This document shows positions 40,564-52,441 of a stretch of 64,000 nucleotides of DNA, in pieces. The DNA is from Weeksellaceae bacterium TAE3-ERU29 (GTDB taxonomy: Bacteria; Bacteroidota; Bacteroidia; Flavobacteriales; Weeksellaceae). The stretch covers positions 62,001-126,000 of the forward strand of contig JAHUUM010000002.1 in assembly GCA_019218445.1 (NCBI GenBank), read 5' to 3'. The notes under the pieces are model-generated. The model did not search any database. It was not told the origin of the DNA and saw nothing but the letters and a program-made list of their open reading frames with translations. Numbering within the stretch: position 1 is the stretch's first letter; the number at the start of each line of letters is the position of its first letter. Both the position numbers and the translations under genes were made by a program.

Positions 40564-42789
40564 ATGAAAAATGTAGAAAAAGCAGATAGAATCCATTTAG
40601 GAAGTCTTATAGATAGTTTAGAAAAAGGACAATATGTAATTCCTGATTTTCAACGTGATTTTGAATGGGAACCTTGGGATGTATTAGAACTGATACGTTC
40701 TATTTTTATGGATTATTATATAGGTACACTTTTATTATGGAAAGGGAATAAAGAAAATTTTGACGTATTAAGTTGTGAAGCAATTTATGGATTCAACAGT
40801 AATTTAGACCCACAACATATTGTTTTAGACGGTCAACAAAGATTAACAGCTATTCATTATGCTTTTTTCGCACCTAATGAACCCTTTCCTAAACGCTCTA
40901 AACCTGTTATTTATTTAATTAACATTCGAGATTTATTAGAAGAAGATTATGAGAACTTTATTTACTATGATTACTTAACCAATAAAAATAAAGTTTTTTT
41001 AGAAAATAAAAATTTACAATTTGAGAACCATATTTTTCCATTAGGAGAAATGAAAGGTGGTACTTGGGGTACCAGCGATTGGATTAAAGAATATAGAGAT
41101 TATTGGCAAGATAAAGCTGATGAAGCTGAGTCAGAAAAAGAAAAAAAAGAGTTTTTAAAATATGTCGAAGGTGCTCGTGTATTCCGAGACATCATAAAAG
41201 AGCTATTAAATGATTTTTACATTAGTTATATAGAATTAGACCATCAGATTGAAGTAGCTAAAGTTTGTGATATTTTCACTAAGATAAATTCAAAAGGAGT
41301 AAGGTTAGATATATTTGATTTACTCAATGCTATATTAAGACCTAAAGAGATTTTTTTAAAACAAATGTGGCGAGATGCCGAAGAATTATTATCTTTCACA
41401 GACACTAAAAAAATGAAGATATATGTTCTTCAAGTTATGTCTGTATTGGAACAATCATACTGCTCCTCTAAATATCTTTATTATCTCGTTCCTAATTCTC
41501 AAAAAACAATTCGTAAAGCTGATGGTAGTAAAGAACAGATTACCTTAATTGAAAATACAGAAAAATTTAATGAACGTTGGTATCAATCTGTAAAAGCATT
41601 AAAAAATGCTATAGAAAGTCTTAAAAATCCAAGAGATTTTGGTGCTGTAAAAGCAACTTTTGTTCCTTATCCATCTATTATACCTGCATTTGCAGCAATA
41701 AAAGAATATGTAAATGAAACAAAACCAAATAATATTTTAGATATAAACAAAAAAATAAGAAAATGGTATTGGGCATCTATCTTTACAAATCGTTATAGCA
41801 GTTCAGTAGAATCAACTACAGCAAAAGACTTTATGAGTTTAAAAAAGTGGTTCAAAGATGAAAATGAAACGCCGGAAGTAATAGAAGAGTTCATTAATAA
41901 CTTTAAACATTTAGATTTAAAAAATGATAATCCTAAAGGATCTGCTATTTATAATGCAATATTCAATCTCTTAGTAATAAATGAGGCAAGAGACTGGAAT
42001 AATTTTGAACTTCCTGAATATAACGAATTAGATGATCACCATATTGTTCCTTATTCTATATTTAAAGACGAAGGAGGTAAAGCAATTAATAGTATTCTTA
42101 ATAGAACTCCCATTTCTGATGTAACAAACAGACATATTATTAATAATAGAATGCCGAGCGATTACATTCAAGAAATGTTTAATAATAATGACAAAAATGA
42201 AGTTTATAAAGTTTTTGAATCACATTTAATTAGTCGTCATGCAATAGATATTCTTTTGAGAAAACCCTTCACAAAAACTGATTTTGATGAGTTTTTAGAA
42301 GAGAGAAAAAGAACCATTTTAGAAGCAATACAAACACAATTAATCAATGATAAAATCAGCATACCCATACATTTAAAACATCTAAATGAAGAAATAGAAG
42401 AAATAGAACTGGCTATAAGAGAAAAAATAGTTTCTATCATAGGAAAAGATATGGAAAATTATAAATTATATATTCCTCAACATATCCAAGATAAAGTAAA
42501 TAGAAGAATAGAATCTGATATTAAGAAAAAAGCTACCGCTAAAATTGAAGATTACAATAACTTTAATAAACGTATTGAATTCTTTGACCTGACTGAATAC
42601 TTAGATGTTATTACTTCTAAAAATAACTGGGATAAATTCTCTAACCTTTTTAAAGATAAAAATAATTTAAACCATCGATTCGATCAACTACGAACTTTAC
42701 GAAATGGGATAAGACACTCCAGAAGTATATCTGAGATTGAACAAATGGATGGAGAAGTTGCTATAAAATGGTTTAAATCTATTTTATAA
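40564..42789 (+). CDS. DUF262-HNH-HEPN fusion, probable anti-phage nuclease
   Basis: 741 residues with three parts. N-terminal DUF262: IPDFQRDFEW (26-35) and VLDGQQRLTAI (87-97), the NTPase/ParB-like motifs of GmrS-type restriction proteins. Middle DUF1524-like HNH: ELDDHHIVPYSIF with DHH around 491-493 and NRTPISDVTNRHI further on. The C-terminal domain ends LRTLRNGIRHSRSISE, which carries the RxxxxH motif of HEPN RNases at 713-718, as in Swt1-like HEPN ends. DUF262-HNH proteins restrict modified phage DNA; the HEPN end is an added nuclease or toxin. It stands alone between housekeeping genes. Confidence 0.85.
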   Translation: MKNVEKADRIHLGSLIDSLEKGQYVIPDFQRDFEWEPWDVLELIRSIFMDYYIGTLLLWKGNKENFDVLSCEAIYGFNSNLDPQHIVLDGQQRLTAIHYAFFAPNEPFPKRSKPVIYLINIRDLLEEDYENFIYYDYLTNKNKVFLENKNLQFENHIFPLGEMKGGTWGTSDWIKEYRDYWQDKADEAESEKEKKEFLKYVEGARVFRDIIKELLNDFYISYIELDHQIEVAKVCDIFTKINSKGVRLDIFDLLNAILRPKEIFLKQMWRDAEELLSFTDTKKMKIYVLQVMSVLEQSYCSSKYLYYLVPNSQKTIRKADGSKEQITLIENTEKFNERWYQSVKALKNAIESLKNPRDFGAVKATFVPYPSIIPAFAAIKEYVNETKPNNILDINKKIRKWYWASIFTNRYSSSVESTTAKDFMSLKKWFKDENETPEVIEEFINNFKHLDLKNDNPKGSAIYNAIFNLLVINEARDWNNFELPEYNELDDHHIVPYSIFKDEGGKAINSILNRTPISDVTNRHIINNRMPSDYIQEMFNNNDKNEVYKVFESHLISRHAIDILLRKPFTKTDFDEFLEERKRTILEAIQTQLINDKISIPIHLKHLNEEIEEIELAIREKIVSIIGKDMENYKLYIPQHIQDKVNRRIESDIKKKATAKIEDYNNFNKRIEFFDLTEYLDVITSKNNWDKFSNLFKDKNNLNHRFDQLRTLRNGIRHSRSISEIEQMDGEVAIKWFKSIL

Positions 42790-45746: not shown

Positions 45747-45825
45747 ATTTAAACTTATTTAAGCCAAAAATAAGGATTAAATAAGGAATTACAAGAGGGA
45801 ATAATATTTTACTTCTTAAAAAAAA

Positions 45826-45909
45826 AGCCATCTCAAAATTTATTGAAACGGCTTTTTTTATTGATTTTTGTTTGTTACTCTCCACAGGAATGGCTTCAAA
45901 TATTAAAAG
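45826..45909. repeat. Direct repeat A, left edge of the 46-52 kb cassette, with terminator hairpin
   Basis: A hairpin (AGCCATCTCAA ... TTGAAACGGCT, two mismatches) with T-runs on both strands, then a shared stretch ending GGAATGGCTTCAAATATTAA. It matches 52354-52441 over about 85 bases in the same orientation. The hairpin can end both the cassette operon and readthrough to its right. Confidence 0.7.
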
Positions 45910-45949
45910 AGGTTTGTGGATGTTAGGACACATTTAAAAAAAAATATTA

Positions 45950-46174
45950 TTACCCTATCTTCGTAACTTCTAAAGTTATGTTACTTAACATAGACGGAAC
46001 TTTTGAAATATCTATTCCATAAGTCCTTATAAACGCATCATTTATTGCTTCTTTTCCTTTTTGGAATGATAAGGGACTTCCTCCATCATACATAAATACC
46101 ACACTCATCCCTTTTTCTAACCTAATTTGGTTAATTACTTTTGACGTTCTTACAGTCGCTCTGTATTGTGCCAT
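45950..46174 (-). CDS. Small DUF6140-like protein, last gene of the cassette operon
   Basis: A 74-residue cytoplasmic protein. The layout RATVRTSKVINQIRLEKGMS, VVFMYDGGSPLSF, INDAFIRTYGIDISK, LSNITLEVTKIG matches what I remember of DUF6140, a short Bacteroidota family without known function. It starts 21 bases after the 767-residue protein's stop. Because it closes the same operon as the AAA+ ATPase set, it is likely part of that system. Confidence 0.6.
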   Translation of the reverse strand: MAQYRATVRTSKVINQIRLEKGMSVVFMYDGGSPLSFQKGKEAINDAFIRTYGIDISKVPSMLSNITLEVTKIG

Positions 46175-46195
46175 AATTACTTGTTTTTAAAATTA

Positions 46196-48499
46196 TTATT
46201 TGTTATTTATTTTTTCTATTTCTATAATTCTTTCTTCACTTATTCCTAACGAATTAGCTAAACGATTTAATATTCTACGTTCTTTTTCACTAACGAGACC
46301 ATCAGACACAAATTCTCTAAATCCTTCTAAGTATTCTTTTTCTTCTGCGGTCAGTCTTATACTACTTTCTAATTCTTTTGCTCTTTCTTCGGTAATATTG
46401 AACCGCTTTCTATATCTTTCCAATATCATTCTTTCCTTTTCATCAATAATACCGTCATCTTCTAACATAAATTTAACCTCCTTTAAATAACATTCTTCAT
46501 TTTTATTTGAAGAGTCTATAACTTCTATTTCTGGTATATCTTGTAATGGTATCTCTAGATTAGTAACATCTATTGTATTATTATCATAAAACTCCCCCAT
46601 AGGTTTAAAGGTTACACTTACTTTCCATTCAGATTCTTTATTGTTTTTTACTTGAGTTTCCATTTTTTGCTCTGCTCCTCCTTTTATAGAAGTAAATAGA
46701 ACACTCAACTCTGCGTTAATCTCTGTTATTTCTGAATTTGATAAAATCTGATTTTTTTTAGAAGAAAAATATTCATTATGGTTTAATAAATCTCCATCTA
46801 AACGCTGTTGTACTAATCTTTGCCAACCAGATTCATTAGGTAACCAAACTAAATTATCAGGAACAAATGGCTTTTTAGTCGGATTAAATGTTTGATGCCT
46901 TCCTATCTTTAAATTACTTTTTTGCAAAGAATCATTTATTCTATCATTTTCAAAATTACCTTTAATATTTGTCAAACCTATATTAATATCATCTGCTCTA
47001 ACTTTTTTATTCAAATGATTATGAGTTTCATTGTCCTCTCCTTTTATACTCTCAATAGAAATAGAAGTAGCTCCTAAACATTGTAACAAATAGCAATACT
47101 CATTTATTCTATCATTAAATAACTCATAATCATAATTATCTATGGGTAAATAACTATCTTTTTTAAATGGGTGACAAACATATGTATGGTTATTTTTAGG
47201 GTGAGTTATAGGAAAATGCACTTGAGGTAAATTAGCTCTATTTACAAGTGTTAAATGAGAAGATTTAAAAAGTTTATCTGTATCTGAAACTACAATAAGC
47301 TGTCTATCTTGAAAATCTATTTCTTTAAAACTAGCAATATAGTCATTATAATGAGTCTTTTTTAATCTATCTAATGAAAATACATCACTTGTATTTCCAC
47401 TTCCTTTTTTTAACTCCTTTAATTCATCATAAGCGAGTGCAACTTCATATAAATTCCCTTCATCTTTATTAATTTCTGCTTGTGCTTGTAAATAATATGA
47501 CATAAATTCTACGTACTCTGGTGTATATTTAAAGAAAGGCTCTAATGCATAGCCTATTTCTTTATCTTGATTACCTAATAACATCATTTCATCTAATTCT
47601 GCCATTTCAGGATCTTGTTCTATCAGATATCTTTCTAAACTAATTTTAGATTCTTTTAGCTGTTCAAATAACTCTAATGCTATATCTCTACGATTAGTCT
47701 TTAAAGCTGATTTTATACCATAAAAGATATAAGTAATATAAAAATCTTTTTCTAAATCTTTACTTTCAACATCTACGGAATCTGCTAATTGATAAGCCTC
47801 TTCATATTTTTCCCTATCTATTAAATCTTTTATCTGACTAAGAAGGTTATCTCCCCACTCTTTATCTCTACTTGAGTTTTCTTTAAAATTTTCAGCTATC
47901 TCACTAAAAAAGGGCACCAAATTATTAATAAAATAACTTCTGCTGTATTGGAATGAACGAGCAAAAAATAGAATTGGAATATTTACATAATTCCTTTCAT
48001 CTAAAAGATAAAAAGCACAGCCATCTATTTTTTCTTTTATTCCTTTATCCTCTGTGAAATATTCATAAGTAGGATCTTTATCTATGATAAGAGAATTTCC
48101 TTTATCTATATTAGAGGCTATATCATTTACATATTCAATATGTCCTAGATTATCCCAAGTTATAAAAAATAAAATATCTTCTTCTTTATCCCAACCATCT
48201 GTTTCTACCGTTGTATGAAAAACTATTCCTTCTTTCAAAACACAACAAGAATAATGAAAGATTCTTGTAGAAGTAAAAAAATCGCCCTTTATTGTATAGT
48301 TTCTACGAAATAAAACATAAATTGTTTCTTCTTCCTCTATACCAATCAAATTCCTAAAGGACAACTCTTCTCCTTTAGACATGGTTTGATTATTACTTTT
48401 CTTTAGTTGCCCATCTAAATTTACATAGATATCACCTTCAGATAAAGTAGTTTTATCTATACCATATTTTCTTATTGCTTCTCGTATTATATTTTCCAT
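46196..48499 (-). CDS. 767-residue cassette protein with two C-terminal helical EF-hand/TerB-like repeats
   Basis: No known family is recognised in the body. The N-terminal third is soluble alpha/beta, and the middle has TPR-like helices. Later there is a segment with ISIESIKGEDNETHNHLNKK and KPFVPDNLVWLPNESGWQRL. The C-terminus has two similar repeats, FMLEDDGIIDEKERMILERY and FVSDGLVSEKERRILNRLAN, each followed by (G)I(S/T)EERxxExE, resembling TerB or SHOCT-like adaptor helices. It has its own promoter 48576-48602, besides the upstream operon. It is likely a core, perhaps scaffold, protein of the cassette. Confidence 0.6.
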   Translation of the reverse strand: MENIIREAIRKYGIDKTTLSEGDIYVNLDGQLKKSNNQTMSKGEELSFRNLIGIEEEETIYVLFRRNYTIKGDFFTSTRIFHYSCCVLKEGIVFHTTVETDGWDKEEDILFFITWDNLGHIEYVNDIASNIDKGNSLIIDKDPTYEYFTEDKGIKEKIDGCAFYLLDERNYVNIPILFFARSFQYSRSYFINNLVPFFSEIAENFKENSSRDKEWGDNLLSQIKDLIDREKYEEAYQLADSVDVESKDLEKDFYITYIFYGIKSALKTNRRDIALELFEQLKESKISLERYLIEQDPEMAELDEMMLLGNQDKEIGYALEPFFKYTPEYVEFMSYYLQAQAEINKDEGNLYEVALAYDELKELKKGSGNTSDVFSLDRLKKTHYNDYIASFKEIDFQDRQLIVVSDTDKLFKSSHLTLVNRANLPQVHFPITHPKNNHTYVCHPFKKDSYLPIDNYDYELFNDRINEYCYLLQCLGATSISIESIKGEDNETHNHLNKKVRADDINIGLTNIKGNFENDRINDSLQKSNLKIGRHQTFNPTKKPFVPDNLVWLPNESGWQRLVQQRLDGDLLNHNEYFSSKKNQILSNSEITEINAELSVLFTSIKGGAEQKMETQVKNNKESEWKVSVTFKPMGEFYDNNTIDVTNLEIPLQDIPEIEVIDSSNKNEECYLKEVKFMLEDDGIIDEKERMILERYRKRFNITEERAKELESSIRLTAEEKEYLEGFREFVSDGLVSEKERRILNRLANSLGISEERIIEIEKINNK

Positions 48500-48575
48500 A
48501 AAAATTAGTTTTTATAAAATTAGGAATTATTCTTCACGTAGGATTTGTCTCACTTATATTTTAATATGAAAGTCA

Positions 48576-48602
48576 CAAAGATAAATATTTTATTATAAGC
48601 AA
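48576..48602 (-). promoter_or_regulatory. Internal promoter before the 767-residue protein gene
   Basis: Minus strand TATCTTTG (48576-48583), with TTG 16 bases upstream (48600-48602). It lies in the 144-base gap between the AAA+ gene and the 767-residue gene, so the last two genes may be separately controlled. Confidence 0.5.
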
Positions 48603-48643
48603 TTAAAATATTAATTTTTCAAGCATTACCCTATCTATTTTTA

Positions 48644-49879
48644 CTATACCTTTTCTGATTTCTCTTTCTCCAAGTTTTCTTTTATCTTGGATTGTATTTT
48701 CTCTTTAAATTCTTTACTGATTTTACCTTTACCTCTCTCTTCTTCTAATTTTTGTAATTTATCTTTTGTACTTTCAAAACCTTTTGTAAATGCAGAAGAT
48801 TTCACTCTATCTTTATCCTCTTTTACTGCGATTGTAAGGCTTTCTAAAACCGCATTTTTTATATCTCTACCCGAAAAACCCTCGGATATTTCTGCTAATT
48901 CCTTACAAAGGTTATCTTTATCTACCTCTTCAGAAAACGGAACTCCTGACGGAATGGTAGAAAAAATTATCTTCTCCCTTACCTCCTTAGTCGGCAAATC
49001 AAAATGAATATGTTTTAATATTCTCGATTCAAAGGCTTTATCATAGTTTTTCACTAAGTTAGTTGCAAATATCACAACCCCTTCAAAATCTTCTAACAAA
49101 ATCAACATTTGACTTCTAAGCGAGTTCACTGCTTGGTCTGAGCTATTAGATACGTTTTCTATTCTCTTTCCCAAAAAAGAATCTGCTTCATCAAAAAACA
49201 AAACAGCTTTTTCTTCTTCTGCTACTCGAAAAGCTTTAAATAAATTTTTAGGGGCATCTCCCACATATTTAGACTCTATTTCTGCATAATTTACTGCCAA
49301 AATATTTTGCCCCAATTCATTTGCTATTGCTTGAGAAACCATAGTTTTCCCCGTACCCGGAGGACCATAAAAGTTTAAAATAAGTTTTGGTTTTGCATCT
49401 ACCTCAGAAAAGCCCCAATAGTCATAAATATGTTTTTGATACTCTATTAATGTCAAAGACAGCTCTATCTCTTCTTTTACTTCTTTAGGTAAAATTACCC
49501 TATCTAAGCTATATTTGGGTTTTTGTGCCTTAAATATAGTTTCTCCATTTTTAGCCTTCTTTTCTTTTCCCAAACTTAACTCAAAGTCATCTTTATCTTC
49601 TTTATTTTGAAAAATATAAATAGAAGGAAAATCTTTTAAAACCTCTTTATTATCTCTAAATATTATTTGTTTTCTAAAGTCTAATGTATCTTTTACCTCC
49701 TCAAAATTTTGTATTTTATTCTGAACAAAAAAACTTGAACTATTTGTCAGTTTTATCTCTGTACTATCTTCAGGTAATTTTTTAGAAAGGCTTACAAAAT
49801 AATGTAAGCCCTCACTTTTTTCTTCAACTATTTCTATAATCTTATTTATAAGATTTTGAGTATTTTCTGAATAACTCAT
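48644..49879 (-). CDS. AAA+ ATPase of the cassette, FIGNL/Spastin-like
   Basis: A 411-residue AAA+ protein. Its N-terminal 120 residues are unique. Then come Walker A GPPGTGKT (172-179), Walker B VLFFDEAD (226-233), sensor 1 FATN (271-274), arginine-finger region FESRILKHIHFDLP, and a C-terminal helical lid with a Lys/Glu-rich coil (KEKIQSKIKENLEKEKSEK). This is the classical-clade type that threads or remodels substrates. There are no protease motifs. It overlaps the upstream 119-residue gene by 4 bases, so they are coupled. It probably acts on the small tail-bearing proteins. Confidence 0.85.
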   Translation of the reverse strand: MSYSENTQNLINKIIEIVEEKSEGLHYFVSLSKKLPEDSTEIKLTNSSSFFVQNKIQNFEEVKDTLDFRKQIIFRDNKEVLKDFPSIYIFQNKEDKDDFELSLGKEKKAKNGETIFKAQKPKYSLDRVILPKEVKEEIELSLTLIEYQKHIYDYWGFSEVDAKPKLILNFYGPPGTGKTMVSQAIANELGQNILAVNYAEIESKYVGDAPKNLFKAFRVAEEEKAVLFFDEADSFLGKRIENVSNSSDQAVNSLRSQMLILLEDFEGVVIFATNLVKNYDKAFESRILKHIHFDLPTKEVREKIIFSTIPSGVPFSEEVDKDNLCKELAEISEGFSGRDIKNAVLESLTIAVKEDKDRVKSSAFTKGFESTKDKLQKLEEERGKGKISKEFKEKIQSKIKENLEKEKSEKV

Positions 49880-50235
49880 ATAACTAATACTTTTTCTCTA
49901 TTTAAACTTATATCTAACTCAGGGTCTATTTCATCATAATCAATTCTTATTGTTGAATGTATTTTACGTCCTGTCTCATCTGATAAAATACCATAAGTTT
50001 CTTTTCCCTGTCTTAACAAAGCATATGTATCGTAAGTTTCTTCTTCTTTCTTAAACAAACTGTACTTATTAAAATTTCCTTGTTCTCTATTTTTTTTCAC
50101 TAGCTCTCCTAAATTCTCTTTTATAGCTTGCTTTCCTGTTTCTCTTGTAAGATATTCCACAAAAGAGACAACTAATTTCCCTATGGCTACCCCCGCAGCA
50201 TATAGAGCATATCCAGGTATTAGATACTTCCACAT
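49876..50235 (-). CDS. Small cassette protein with N-terminal membrane segment, tail diverged
   Basis: A 119-residue protein. A hydrophobic N-terminus (LIPGYALYAAGVAIGKLVVS) gives one probable membrane segment, and a charged region follows. The C-terminal half (TYGILSDETGRKIHSTIRID) and the end NREKVLVI align loosely with the tails of the three genes upstream, which end FGDKxML-type. It is translationally coupled to the AAA+ gene (4-base overlap) and begins 4 bases after the 125-residue gene. Function is unknown. Confidence 0.7.
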   Translation of the reverse strand: MWKYLIPGYALYAAGVAIGKLVVSFVEYLTRETGKQAIKENLGELVKKNREQGNFNKYSLFKKEEETYDTYALLRQGKETYGILSDETGRKIHSTIRIDYDEIDPELDISLNREKVLVI

Positions 50236-50238
50236 AAT

Positions 50239-50616
50239 TTATTCAAGTATAAGCATATCTTTATCCCCAAAAGCATCTAAAAGATTTGTTTCTAAGGTAT
50301 TCGCTTTCACTATTAAAGTATTGTCTGTTAATATCTCTCGTGTTTGCTCGTTATAATATGTTAGAACATAATACGGGAAATCATTATATAACCTAAATGC
50401 TTCTCCATTTGTATTATCAACCTTTAACACTATGGCTTTTAAGTTTGTTGTTGGTTTTTCTTGTCGCTGAAAATAATCTTTTATATAACGAAGTGTTAAC
50501 TTATCAACTTCTTCTTTCTTTATCTCTTCCTGACTATTTTTATAATAATAGTACACTGCTCCGGCAACAATTGCTACACCGATTAAGCCTAAAATAATTT
50601 TACTTGTATTTTCCAT
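50239..50616 (-). CDS. Small cassette protein, single membrane segment, FGDKDML tail
   Basis: A 125-residue protein. A membrane segment (IILGLIGVAIVAGAVYYYY) leads to a helical linker, then a beta-type domain (VLTYYNEQTREILTDNTLIV) and the tail LLDAFGDKDMLILE. The tail and preceding domain match the 133-residue neighbour (TYYDEDTQEIL; EKFGDKEMLIIE), so these are paralogues with different N-termini. Its DNA-level tail is also conserved. Topology probably leaves the tail in the cytoplasm, where the AAA+ ATPase can reach it. Confidence 0.75.
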   Translation of the reverse strand: MENTSKIILGLIGVAIVAGAVYYYYKNSQEEIKKEEVDKLTLRYIKDYFQRQEKPTTNLKAIVLKVDNTNGEAFRLYNDFPYYVLTYYNEQTREILTDNTLIVKANTLETNLLDAFGDKDMLILE

Positions 50617-50629
50617 CTCTTTTTTATTT

Positions 50630-51031
50630 TTATTCTATTATTAACATTTCTTTGTCTCCAAATTTTTCTTGGGTTTCACTATCCAATGACTCGTATTCAT
50701 TTACTTCTGTATATTCTTCTAAAATTTCCTGTGTATCCTCATCATAATATGTATTTATAACGACTCCTTTACTATTACTACTCAACCCTAAATCTAATGT
50801 CTTATGATTTCCTGTAGCTATATAATTTTTCACCAATAATGAGATACCTTTTGCATTAGGTTTTTTCTGCATTACTTTATCATGTATTCCTCGAAACCAA
50901 TTTGCTAAATTCTTGAAAAAACTAAATATCGCAACAAATACCTTTTTAAGTTTATCCCATACCGCTAACAAGGACACCAAAATAACATTTGTTTCCTTTT
51001 TAAATGCTGACTTTAAATAATCAAATACCAT
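50630..51031 (-). CDS. Small cassette protein with amphipathic or hydrophobic helix, FGDKEML tail
   Basis: A 133-residue protein. A hydrophobic/aromatic helix (NVILVSLLAVWDKLKKVFVA, then IFSFFKNLANWF) suggests membrane association. The central and C-terminal domain carries VVINTYYDEDTQEILEEYTE and ends EKFGDKEMLIIE, matching the neighbour at 50239. It begins 8 bases after the stop of the 144-residue gene. No enzymatic motif is seen. Confidence 0.75.
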   Translation of the reverse strand: MVFDYLKSAFKKETNVILVSLLAVWDKLKKVFVAIFSFFKNLANWFRGIHDKVMQKKPNAKGISLLVKNYIATGNHKTLDLGLSSNSKGVVINTYYDEDTQEILEEYTEVNEYESLDSETQEKFGDKEMLIIE

Positions 51032-51039
51032 ATTTTTTT

Positions 51040-51474
51040 TTATAAATTAATTAATAACATATTTTTATCTCCAAATGCTTCTTTTAAGTCAGCAGACTTC
51101 ATATCACAACGTAAACAGAAAACTCTATCTGCAATTACTGCTTTTTTATCTCTGTTTAAATACTGCATAAACAACTCTAATTTATCATTTTCATTTCTAC
51201 CCAAATCTAAAAGAGCTACAAAATGAGCCTCCTCTATTCTATTCTCTCTAATGATTTCTTTTAGATTTTGAATGTCTAATTTCTCTATGGAAATCATAAC
51301 ACAAGGTTTATAAGTCTTTTTTTCAACAAACTCAGTTGCCTTGTTTATCGCTTTTTCTGCTCTTTCTAATCCTTCTTTTAGATTTTCACCGTGCTCTTCT
51401 AAAAAAGCTGTAATTTGTTTTAAATTATCTCCTTTAAAAACATTTTGAAGATTTTCTACAATTACTTTATTCAT
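51040..51474 (-). CDS. First small cassette protein, soluble, FGDKNML tail
   Basis: A 144-residue protein with no membrane segment. The N-terminal coiled or helical half (NLKQITAFLEEHGENLKEGL, RAEKAINKATEFVEKK) precedes an alpha/beta region (VALLDLGRNENDKLELFMQY) and the tail LKEAFGDKNMLLINL. This tail matches those of the next two genes despite different upstream sequence. It is the first gene after the cassette promoter, with a -7 box at 51520-51527. Confidence 0.75.
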   Translation of the reverse strand: MNKVIVENLQNVFKGDNLKQITAFLEEHGENLKEGLERAEKAINKATEFVEKKTYKPCVMISIEKLDIQNLKEIIRENRIEEAHFVALLDLGRNENDKLELFMQYLNRDKKAVIADRVFCLRCDMKSADLKEAFGDKNMLLINL

Positions 51475-51519
51475 AATTTTTAATTTATTTTATTATCTTA
51501 TTTATTATAATTAACACTG

Positions 51520-51527
51520 CAAATATA
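51520..51527 (-). promoter_or_regulatory. -7 box of the cassette operon
   Basis: Reads TATATTTG on the minus strand, 45 bases before the first gene. A palindrome-like ACGC-CAAA-GCGT lies at about 51538-51549 and may be an operator for the divergent XRE regulator. The rest of 51550-51939 is AT-rich with no gene recognised. Confidence 0.5.
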
Positions 51528-51939
51528 ATTTCACACTACGCCAAAGCGTGTCTTTCAAAAAAAAATCTGTAAATTTTTTTTACAAATAAGCTTTATTAAA
51601 CTTTTTAGATAATTTAGGAATATATATATTTGCTGTAAACCATGTGATAATGTTCCTTTTCTAAACACAGAAATTATTTACCAAGGAACAATATTTATAT
51701 CTCAATTAATATAAATTTTTATATGAACGTAGTTAAATATTAATAAAATCACCCTTTAAAGGATTATTATGACAACCTAAGTCGCTCAACTTAAAAATAC
51801 ATAAAAAATGAATAAATTTATTATCTACTTTCATCATAATTTATATTTTTTAACATCAATAATCAATTATTTAAGAAATTTAATTTCCCAAAGATGAGGA
51901 ATACCTAATATTTAAGCTTAAACAAAAACGAATATTTTA

Positions 51940-51981
51940 ATACATAAAATGAATAAAACAATACATAAAATGAATAAAGTA
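51940..51981 (+). repeat. 21-bp tandem duplication over the XRE start, with a third copy upstream
   Basis: ATACATAAAATGAATAAAACA is followed at once by ATACATAAAATGAATAAAGTA, so the start region and its ATG are doubled in frame (ATG at 51949 and 51970). A related copy, ATACATAAAAAATGAATAAA, lies at 51798-51817. The repeat could be an operator for the regulator. Confidence 0.65.
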
Positions 51982-52329
51982 GGTTTTAATATTAGAAAAA
52001 TAAGAGAAAAAAAAGGCTATTCCCAAGAATATATGGCTCAAGAACTGGAAATTAGCCAAGCTACGTATGCTCGTATAGAAAATCAAGCTACACGACTTAC
52101 TGTTGAACGACTTTATCAGATAGCTGAAATTTTAAATACAGATATAGCAGAATTTTTTAATGCAAGCCAACTTACTATTCAACATCAAGAAAATCAACAA
52201 GGCTCATACGGAAATGGATATGTTCAGAATTTACATGTTGAAAATAAAGAAGTGTATGAGAAATTAATAGAAACTTTAGAAAGCCAAGTAAATTATTTAA
52301 AAGAAAGATTAAAACTCTACGAGAATTAA
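51949..52329 (+). CDS. XRE-family HTH regulator, divergent from the cassette operon
   Basis: A 126-residue protein. It has an HTH_3 domain (IRKIREKKGYSQEYMAQELE, then ISQATYARIENQATRLTVER) and a C-terminal coiled coil (EVYEKLIETLESQVNYLKER). Start choice is ambiguous: ATG 51949 or ATG 51970, both inside a 21-bp duplication; the second gives MNKVGFN and a more typical length. It lies about 470 bases from the operon it probably controls, in the opposite direction. It is followed by hairpin repeat B at 52354. Confidence 0.88.
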   Translation: MNKTIHKMNKVGFNIRKIREKKGYSQEYMAQELEISQATYARIENQATRLTVERLYQIAEILNTDIAEFFNASQLTIQHQENQQGSYGNGYVQNLHVENKEVYEKLIETLESQVNYLKERLKLYEN

Positions 52330-52353
52330 TAAATTAAAATTCTATAAATAAGT

Positions 52354-52441
52354 AGCCGTTTCAATGAGTTTTGAAACGGCTTTTTTATTGTTAATTTTTA
52401 CTCGTACCTCTCCTCCACAAGAATGGTTTCAAATATTAAAA
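52354..52441. repeat. Direct repeat B, right edge of the cassette, with terminator hairpin
   Basis: AGCCGTTTCAA and TTGAAACGGCT (52354-52381) form a perfect 11-bp stem followed by T-runs. The rest matches repeat A through GAATGGTTTCAAATATTAAA. It terminates the XRE gene. A third hairpin of this family is at 59774-59825. Confidence 0.7.

Follow-up and report, generated by a model that had tools for sequence, protein, structure and literature searches.

How do small proteins that differ at the start and agree at the end come to be encoded directly ahead of an AAA+ ATPase, and what might the ATPase do with them? The question is raised by a cassette in Weeksellaceae bacterium TAE3-ERU29 (contig JAHUUM010000002.1, positions 62,001 to 126,000, a stretch of 64,000 nucleotides called the window here). 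On the minus strand four consecutive small genes, p1 to p4, run into an ATPase gene; the gaps between the four are 8, 13 and 3 bases, and p4 overlaps the ATPase gene by four bases (ATGA). A sequence-only reading had described this arrangement, and the coordinates bear it out. The answer put forward here, with moderate confidence and from sequence, is a compact mobile AAA+ module that may remodel membrane-anchored paralogues through a shared C-terminal domain. The core features, in window positions, are as follows (aa, amino acids; the topology of p1, p2 and p4 was judged by eye).

51040-51474, minus strand: p1, 144 aa, N-terminal part helical with no apparent membrane segment, shared C-terminal domain
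51043-51081, minus strand: p1 tail, EAFGDKNMLLINL
50630-51031, minus strand: p2, 133 aa, N-terminal part amphipathic/hydrophobic, shared C-terminal domain
50633-50668, minus strand: p2 tail, EKFGDKEMLIIE
50239-50616, minus strand: p3, 125 aa, N-terminal helix hydrophobic, shared C-terminal domain
50242-50277, minus strand: p3 tail, DAFGDKDMLILE
49876-50235, minus strand: p4, 119 aa, N-terminus hydrophobic, possible fourth member
49879-49902, minus strand: divergent C-terminus of p4, NREKVLVI
48644-49879, minus strand: AAA+ ATPase, 411 aa

What is the common ending part of? The C-termini of p1, p2 and p3 are nearly identical and p4 ends differently, as had been read at the outset. The tail lies at the C-terminal end or no more than three residues from it. 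When p1, p2 and p3 of three genomes are compared (33 pairs), the paralogues share 48% identity over the final 15 alignment columns vs 17% elsewhere, a pattern that fits a common contact surface. The likeness of the three proteins goes beyond the tail and takes in a whole domain, some 75 residues long. In a whole-genome search, p1 is recovered at E 1.4e-5 by a profile built on p2 and p3 of three genomes; when a similar profile restricted to the last 78 residues of these proteins is run against 8124 open reading frames (ORFs) of collected loci, p1 scores 7.4e-7. p1 is 36% and 45% identical to its counterparts. The claim that the N-terminal parts differ in kind stands in the form of a soluble helical p1, an amphipathic or hydrophobic p2 and a p3 with a hydrophobic helix.

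An AlphaFold2 model of p3 was made from an alignment of eight rows, consisting of window and Tannerella proteins (mean predicted local distance difference test score, pLDDT, 75.7; predicted template-modelling score 0.73). It has a hydrophobic helix at residues 14-27, in a section modelled at low confidence (block means 58-59, residues 11-30), and then strand 33-40, helix 42-51, strands 59-66, 82-89 and 94-108, helix 110-116 and strand 121-124. In this model the tail is the last helix and strand of the shared C-terminal domain, and not a free tag. The p3 fold has no Foldseek match at E<=0.001 (best VIA Z 2.8, 67 residues, root-mean-square deviation 3.8), which does not imply a new fold. Run against PDB sequences, the p2/p3 profile gave zero matches, and Pfam, NCBIfam, PADLOC and PHROGs gave no convincing match for p1-p4, only sub-threshold or weak ones.

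Does the set recur? A Tannerella metagenome-assembled genome (MAG; locus L096) carries p1-p2-p3-p4-ATPase in the order seen in the window. Its small proteins end in KAFGNKNMLLINL, KQFGNKEMLVLE, EAFGGKDMLILE and KYLIV, the p4 counterpart by synteny is a 164-aa gene, and its ATPase is 57% identical to that of the window. In the congener G002 the cassette is found at another site and rearranged, its genes running p1, p3-like, p2, one of 63 aa, another p3-like and finally the ATPase. Together with 107-aa and 384-aa genes upstream, it sits between two genes that we take to be infC and rpmI. A small protein of membrane type, whose SHOCT match stands at the cut-off, is encoded ahead of it (L031, 9855-10178), and between this gene and p1 comes a short hydrophobic ORF. 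With the p2/p3 profile, the congeners G001 and G003 gave no small-protein match. Cassette neighbours differ from site to site: downstream lie a Csx27-like membrane protein (PADLOC 1.1e-38) and a Fic protein (5e-12) in Tannerella, ribosomal genes in G002, and a 767-aa gene and a DUF6140 gene in the window. Since the core order is kept while the downstream genes vary, the core consists of the small proteins plus the ATPase, and this core has moved.

Are the small proteins found away from the ATPase? Genome searches were of samples of each group; with the ATPase, five candidates were scored per genome for the family and four for the phylum and class, and with the 767-aa protein three. The p2/p3 profile matched the own genome and G002 among 40 relatives; in the phylum sample it matched none of the 394 other genomes (best 10 candidates per genome scored). 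Among the 8124 ORFs, every profile match below E 0.1 sits in an ATPase-linked cassette. Occurrence of the tails only beside this ATPase is shown for close relatives. It is limited to these because the p2/p3 profile does not extend to distant members: its matches in the 8124 ORFs include no protein of L135 or L142 (see below).

An ATPase of the clade described below is present in 2 of 320 family genomes, with nine further matches from 9.4e-40 to 6.5e-34. In 395 class genomes strong matches are confined to the own genome and G979; 19 others at about 1e-46 to 1e-50 have scores like those of the injection-system type discussed below. The 43 matches past 1e-33 in 395 phylum genomes comprise the own ATPase, 13 at 5.8e-83 to 2.8e-71, and 29 weaker ones. 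Alongside 12 of the 13 no such small paralogues were seen; the thirteenth, in G717, whose contig seems to be that of L099, has neighbours that by eye resemble MotA/MotB. An ATPase version without such small neighbours recurs in same-phylum genomes (L076-L087), and several of these ATPases have a CPIH-type N-terminus that may bind zinc. Little came from further searches: nothing useful was obtained from genome contigs with the 767-aa protein, from viral contigs with small-protein alignments or from E. coli genomes with ATPase DNA; the first ATPase alignment gave three weak matches in viral contigs; p3 gave no match in plasmids, and one Planktothrix small protein found only its own plasmid. No description of the cassette was found in an open-licence library of papers, which does not extend to bioRxiv and most subscription journals.

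What distinguishes the ATPase itself? PF00004 (8e-28) and AAA_lid_3 (8.2e-8) are the sole Pfam families above cut-off, and no protease domain reaches it. The protein has a Walker A motif (GPPGTGKT), a Walker B motif (FFDEAD), a pore-loop-like ESKYVGD, the lid and an N-terminal extension. The best solved relatives of the family profile are of the VCP/Cdc48 type, with VCP-like 5vc7 at the top (2.5e-66). A tree was built without six near-duplicate loci and, chosen outgroups apart, without ATPases below 245 bits. In it all six loci with domain-bearing neighbours fall in one clade (FastTree local support 0.88, with Planktothrix and L100 included; 0.989 for the other five members). Ahead of Walker A, the ATPases of this tail clade have 136-182 residues, those of a small-membrane-protein group 75-94. 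The longer stretch makes the N-terminal extension a candidate for the partner-binding part; relatives of the MotA/MotB type have 89-138 residues, and the association is thus not exclusive.

The six loci with the shared domain beside a clade ATPase are the window, G002, Tannerella, L135 of G979, L107 of Planktothrix and L142, the last by a weak match. The ATPase on the Planktothrix agardhii plasmid (L107), 39% identical to that of the window over the matched part, comes after five small genes. These are in turn preceded by the gene of a 699-aa protein that combines an Hsp70 part (2e-18) with tetratricopeptide repeats (TPRs); the shared domain also terminates this Hsp70-TPR protein, whose last residues are LSDSFQNKDLLIFE. 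A profile of four Planktothrix small proteins reaches an L135 protein (4e-6), the Tannerella p2 (1.1e-4) and the G002 p2 (1.4e-4). L135, a short contig of the same-class genome G979, has two open frames before its ATPase, one a small membrane-type gene and the other of at most 262 residues; L142, a viral-collection contig, has two small membrane-type genes there. The first small proteins of L135 and L142 are 38% identical. Neighbours were examined, though not in full, for 14 of 53 viral loci, and small proteins elsewhere were scanned with Pfam only (three of the five of Planktothrix, two of L109, and a single one of L097, of L100 and of L142).

How would such a module work? The small paralogues may constitute a built-in partner set of the ATPase, each joining to a common C-terminal alpha/beta domain an N-terminal part of its own (soluble helices, an amphipathic helix, a membrane helix). 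The most conserved surface of that domain would be the terminal helix and strand, i.e. the ‘tail’. Through the domain the paralogues could co-assemble at the membrane and be presented to the ATPase, which might grip them by its pore loop and pull apart, extract or reset the assembly. The small proteins are probably mostly membrane-bound, and the ATPase probably remodels them. The genes, the domain common to p1-p3, the conservation of the tail, the conserved order, the ATPase motifs and the joint occurrence are read from the sequence; membrane location, co-assembly, contact between ATPase and domain, and a part in stress or phage defence are what we infer.

Several observations weigh against this proposal. 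The pore loop of the Planktothrix ATPase, IESPLLG, lacks the aromatic residue of the motif; in the pore-loop comparison the L096 motif was taken from a separate reading, and the script missed or misplaced the loop in L098, L099, L106, L111, L113 and L145. The window-side profile reaches three Planktothrix proteins at a modest E 0.006-0.04, and the Planktothrix profile reaches the L142 small protein at only 0.017. Inside the clade, L100 (a Thermoguttaceae MAG) has three small upstream genes that no profile recognises. The fourth-position gene of G002, with 63 aa, has no tail, and p4 of the window is weakly related, with its family membership unproven: its profile reaches the Tannerella p2 at E 0.02 among the 8124 ORFs, and its structure model (pLDDT 38) is unusable. 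Finally, the 8124 ORFs come mostly from loci collected via the ATPase, and the set is biased towards ATPase loci.

With what else do related ATPases travel? A recurrent operon with sister ATPases encodes the ATPase, a 414-443 aa protein with an amphipathic N-terminus, and MotA-like and MotB-like proteins (L113, 760-10008; L145, 7893-12747; L111, 4761-8731; L098, 8673-12718; L099, 3281-8205). L113 has matches to ZorA (5.3e-8) and ZorB (1.6e-21), which follow a helicase matching the PADLOC candidate PDC-M27C; the other four operons were assigned by eye, with MotB unseen in L111. The operon looks Zorya-like with an added AAA+ ATPase. In Fibrobacter intestinalis (L098, 2116-12718) a dynamin-like protein (Dynamin_N 2e-16, LeoA 1.2e-11), whose gene matches LeoA/LeoBC, lies upstream of an ATPase set of this kind. 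ATPase relatives are also present on plasmid, phage and viral-collection records. From this context, i.e. mobile records together with the L113 and L098 loci, a defence role of the cassette is plausible. In further branches of the ATPase, on plasmids, a MAG or a viral-collection contig, between one and three small genes, some of membrane type, lie next to the ATPase (L097, 5963-7660; L108, 4947-7368; L109, 2866-5145; L106, 3514-5945; L146, 5061-6352). The ends of these small proteins (e.g. VDLTEELQLKLA) are unlike the tail, and homology to p1-p4 is possible.

Around the core of the window lie the following features.

46196-48499, minus strand: 767-aa protein with a weakly TerB-like C-terminus, outside the conserved core
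45950-46174, minus strand: DUF6140 protein (PF19637 6.2e-14, 52.2 bits, cut-off 27), probably a passenger
51949-52329, plus strand: divergent XRE-type regulator (HTH_3 6.3e-16)
45813-45908: dispersed repeat of about 100 bp, left copy, 75% identical to the right copy
52340-52441: dispersed repeat of about 100 bp, right copy, the other boundary of the cassette region

The regulator and the DUF6140 protein were correctly recognised in the sequence-only reading. Its assignment of the 767-aa and DUF6140 proteins to the system is not upheld, as neither is seen in the G002 and Tannerella cassettes. The 767-aa gene has no match in 294 other class genomes (1 of 295, the own genome); DUF6140 is found in 4 of 59 relatives, the own genome counted, among them G003, which has no cassette match. 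Of the ‘helical repeats’ proposed for the 767-aa protein there is a sub-threshold C-terminal TerB match (Pfam, 18.1 bits, cut-off 24.4) and a weak match of residues 663-758 to PADLOC PDC-S48 (3.7e-5). Its gene starts 144 bp past the ATPase; a -7-box-like sequence at 48583 is a weak signal because the same strand of the window has 59 such boxes. The repeat copies that flank the region are in direct orientation and partly palindromic, and the repeat has 50 matches in the genome (both strands and itself counted). The genes that are presumably priA and a nitronate monooxygenase gene lie more than 200 kb apart in three congeners, and this gave no empty-site comparison. A GmrSD-type protein (PF03235 6.4e-32), with a sub-threshold HEPN match, is encoded at 40564-42789 and ends about 3 kb from the cassette region.

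Could the small proteins be weapons? p2, p3 and p4 might be membrane-disrupting effectors of abortive defence, held inactive by assembly of their C-terminal domains and armed or disarmed by the ATPase on infection. Their hydrophobic or amphipathic N-termini are consistent with this, as are the company of related ATPases (the Zorya-like MotA/MotB and helicase locus, the dynamin-like LeoA/LeoBC operon, the mobile and viral records) and the nearby GmrSD-type gene. The PADLOC models, however, match none of the window's small proteins, and context is not function; we consider the explanation possible, with some doubt. Is the tail instead a short tag that serves the ATPase as a degron or as a sorting signal? 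Its conservation far exceeds that of the remaining domain, it lies close to the C-terminus, and it is more similar within a genome than between genomes, although this ranks only 2 of 36 permutations. Yet in the model it is the helix and strand of a folded domain, the homology spans about 75 residues, and Pfam recognised no protease or shell gene in the region, including no shell family in its eight proteins for cargo loading of the encapsulin type. We regard a short tag as unlikely. The sequence-only reading, which saw the tail as a recognition or sorting signal in a new system, thus keeps an undescribed cassette and a tail retained with the ATPase; the signal itself would, by the model, be the end of a folded domain. 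In a third explanation the domain serves assembly of the small proteins alone, and the ATPase acts on a different substrate. Some related ATPases lack such partners, so that this ATPase fold can work alone, but the gene coupling and the way in which the ATPase clade tracks domain-bearing neighbours make it rather improbable. A divergent IetAS-type defence system is very improbable, and membership is rejected: the best PADLOC match is to IetA (4.6e-32), an anti-phage AAA+ ATPase that resembles the window ATPase in size and core, but the latter scores 93.4 bits vs the NCBIfam equivalog cut-off of 510, and several small paralogues stand in place of a subtilisin-type (IetS) serine-protease partner, of which Pfam and NCBIfam found no match in the region's eight proteins.

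How does the proposed remodelling module compare with known systems? That the genes belong to a described one is contradicted for IetAS and equally for FtsH, ESCRT and Zorya. FtsH is rejected, as no zinc-protease domain follows the AAA domain and the FtsH model gives 74.1 bits (cut-off 600). Vps4/CdvC with ESCRT-III is alike in joining an AAA ATPase to a set of small paralogues, and its membrane remodelling is our working analogy; the cassette partners, however, have an alpha/beta C-terminal domain, and membership is rejected (no MIT or Snf7 in Pfam at E<=1; CdvC model 98.3 bits, cut-off 650). Cdc48/VCP-like and other classical AAA ATPases have the core, the lid and the pore-loop-like motif in common with the window ATPase, which differs in its single AAA domain, its own N-terminal extension and its bacterial cassette with dedicated small partners. 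Zorya membership is rejected in that PADLOC finds no ZorA/ZorB match in the cassette. The Zorya-like loci do carry a sister ATPase (40.6% identical in L113), but its partners are the 414-443 aa, MotA-like and MotB-like proteins and not small paralogues. The ATPases of L003-L007, which we take to be extracellular contractile injection-like loci, share the AAA core; they are rejected as members, being on a separate branch of the tree and having no small-paralogue match in their loci.

What would the finding mean? The gene set and the domain look new; machines that pair an AAA+ motor with partners of its own are a known type. p1-p4 lie outside every family of four libraries, yet the domain and the ATPase are kept in several Bacteroidota and on a cyanobacterial plasmid. 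A bolder version, which we offer tentatively, is an undescribed, horizontally moving prokaryotic machine for membrane surveillance or phage defence. In it, membrane-anchored paralogues would form a hetero-assembly tended by an AAA+ unfoldase of their own, via one new C-terminal domain placed on diverse N-terminal parts, Hsp70-TPR included; this would be a functional counterpart of Vps4/ESCRT made from unrelated parts. If the domain is the handle of the ATPase, it would constitute a portable address, able to recruit arbitrary N-terminal modules to an unfoldase. If true, the cassette would represent a new membrane remodelling or immune machine, testable with five genes.

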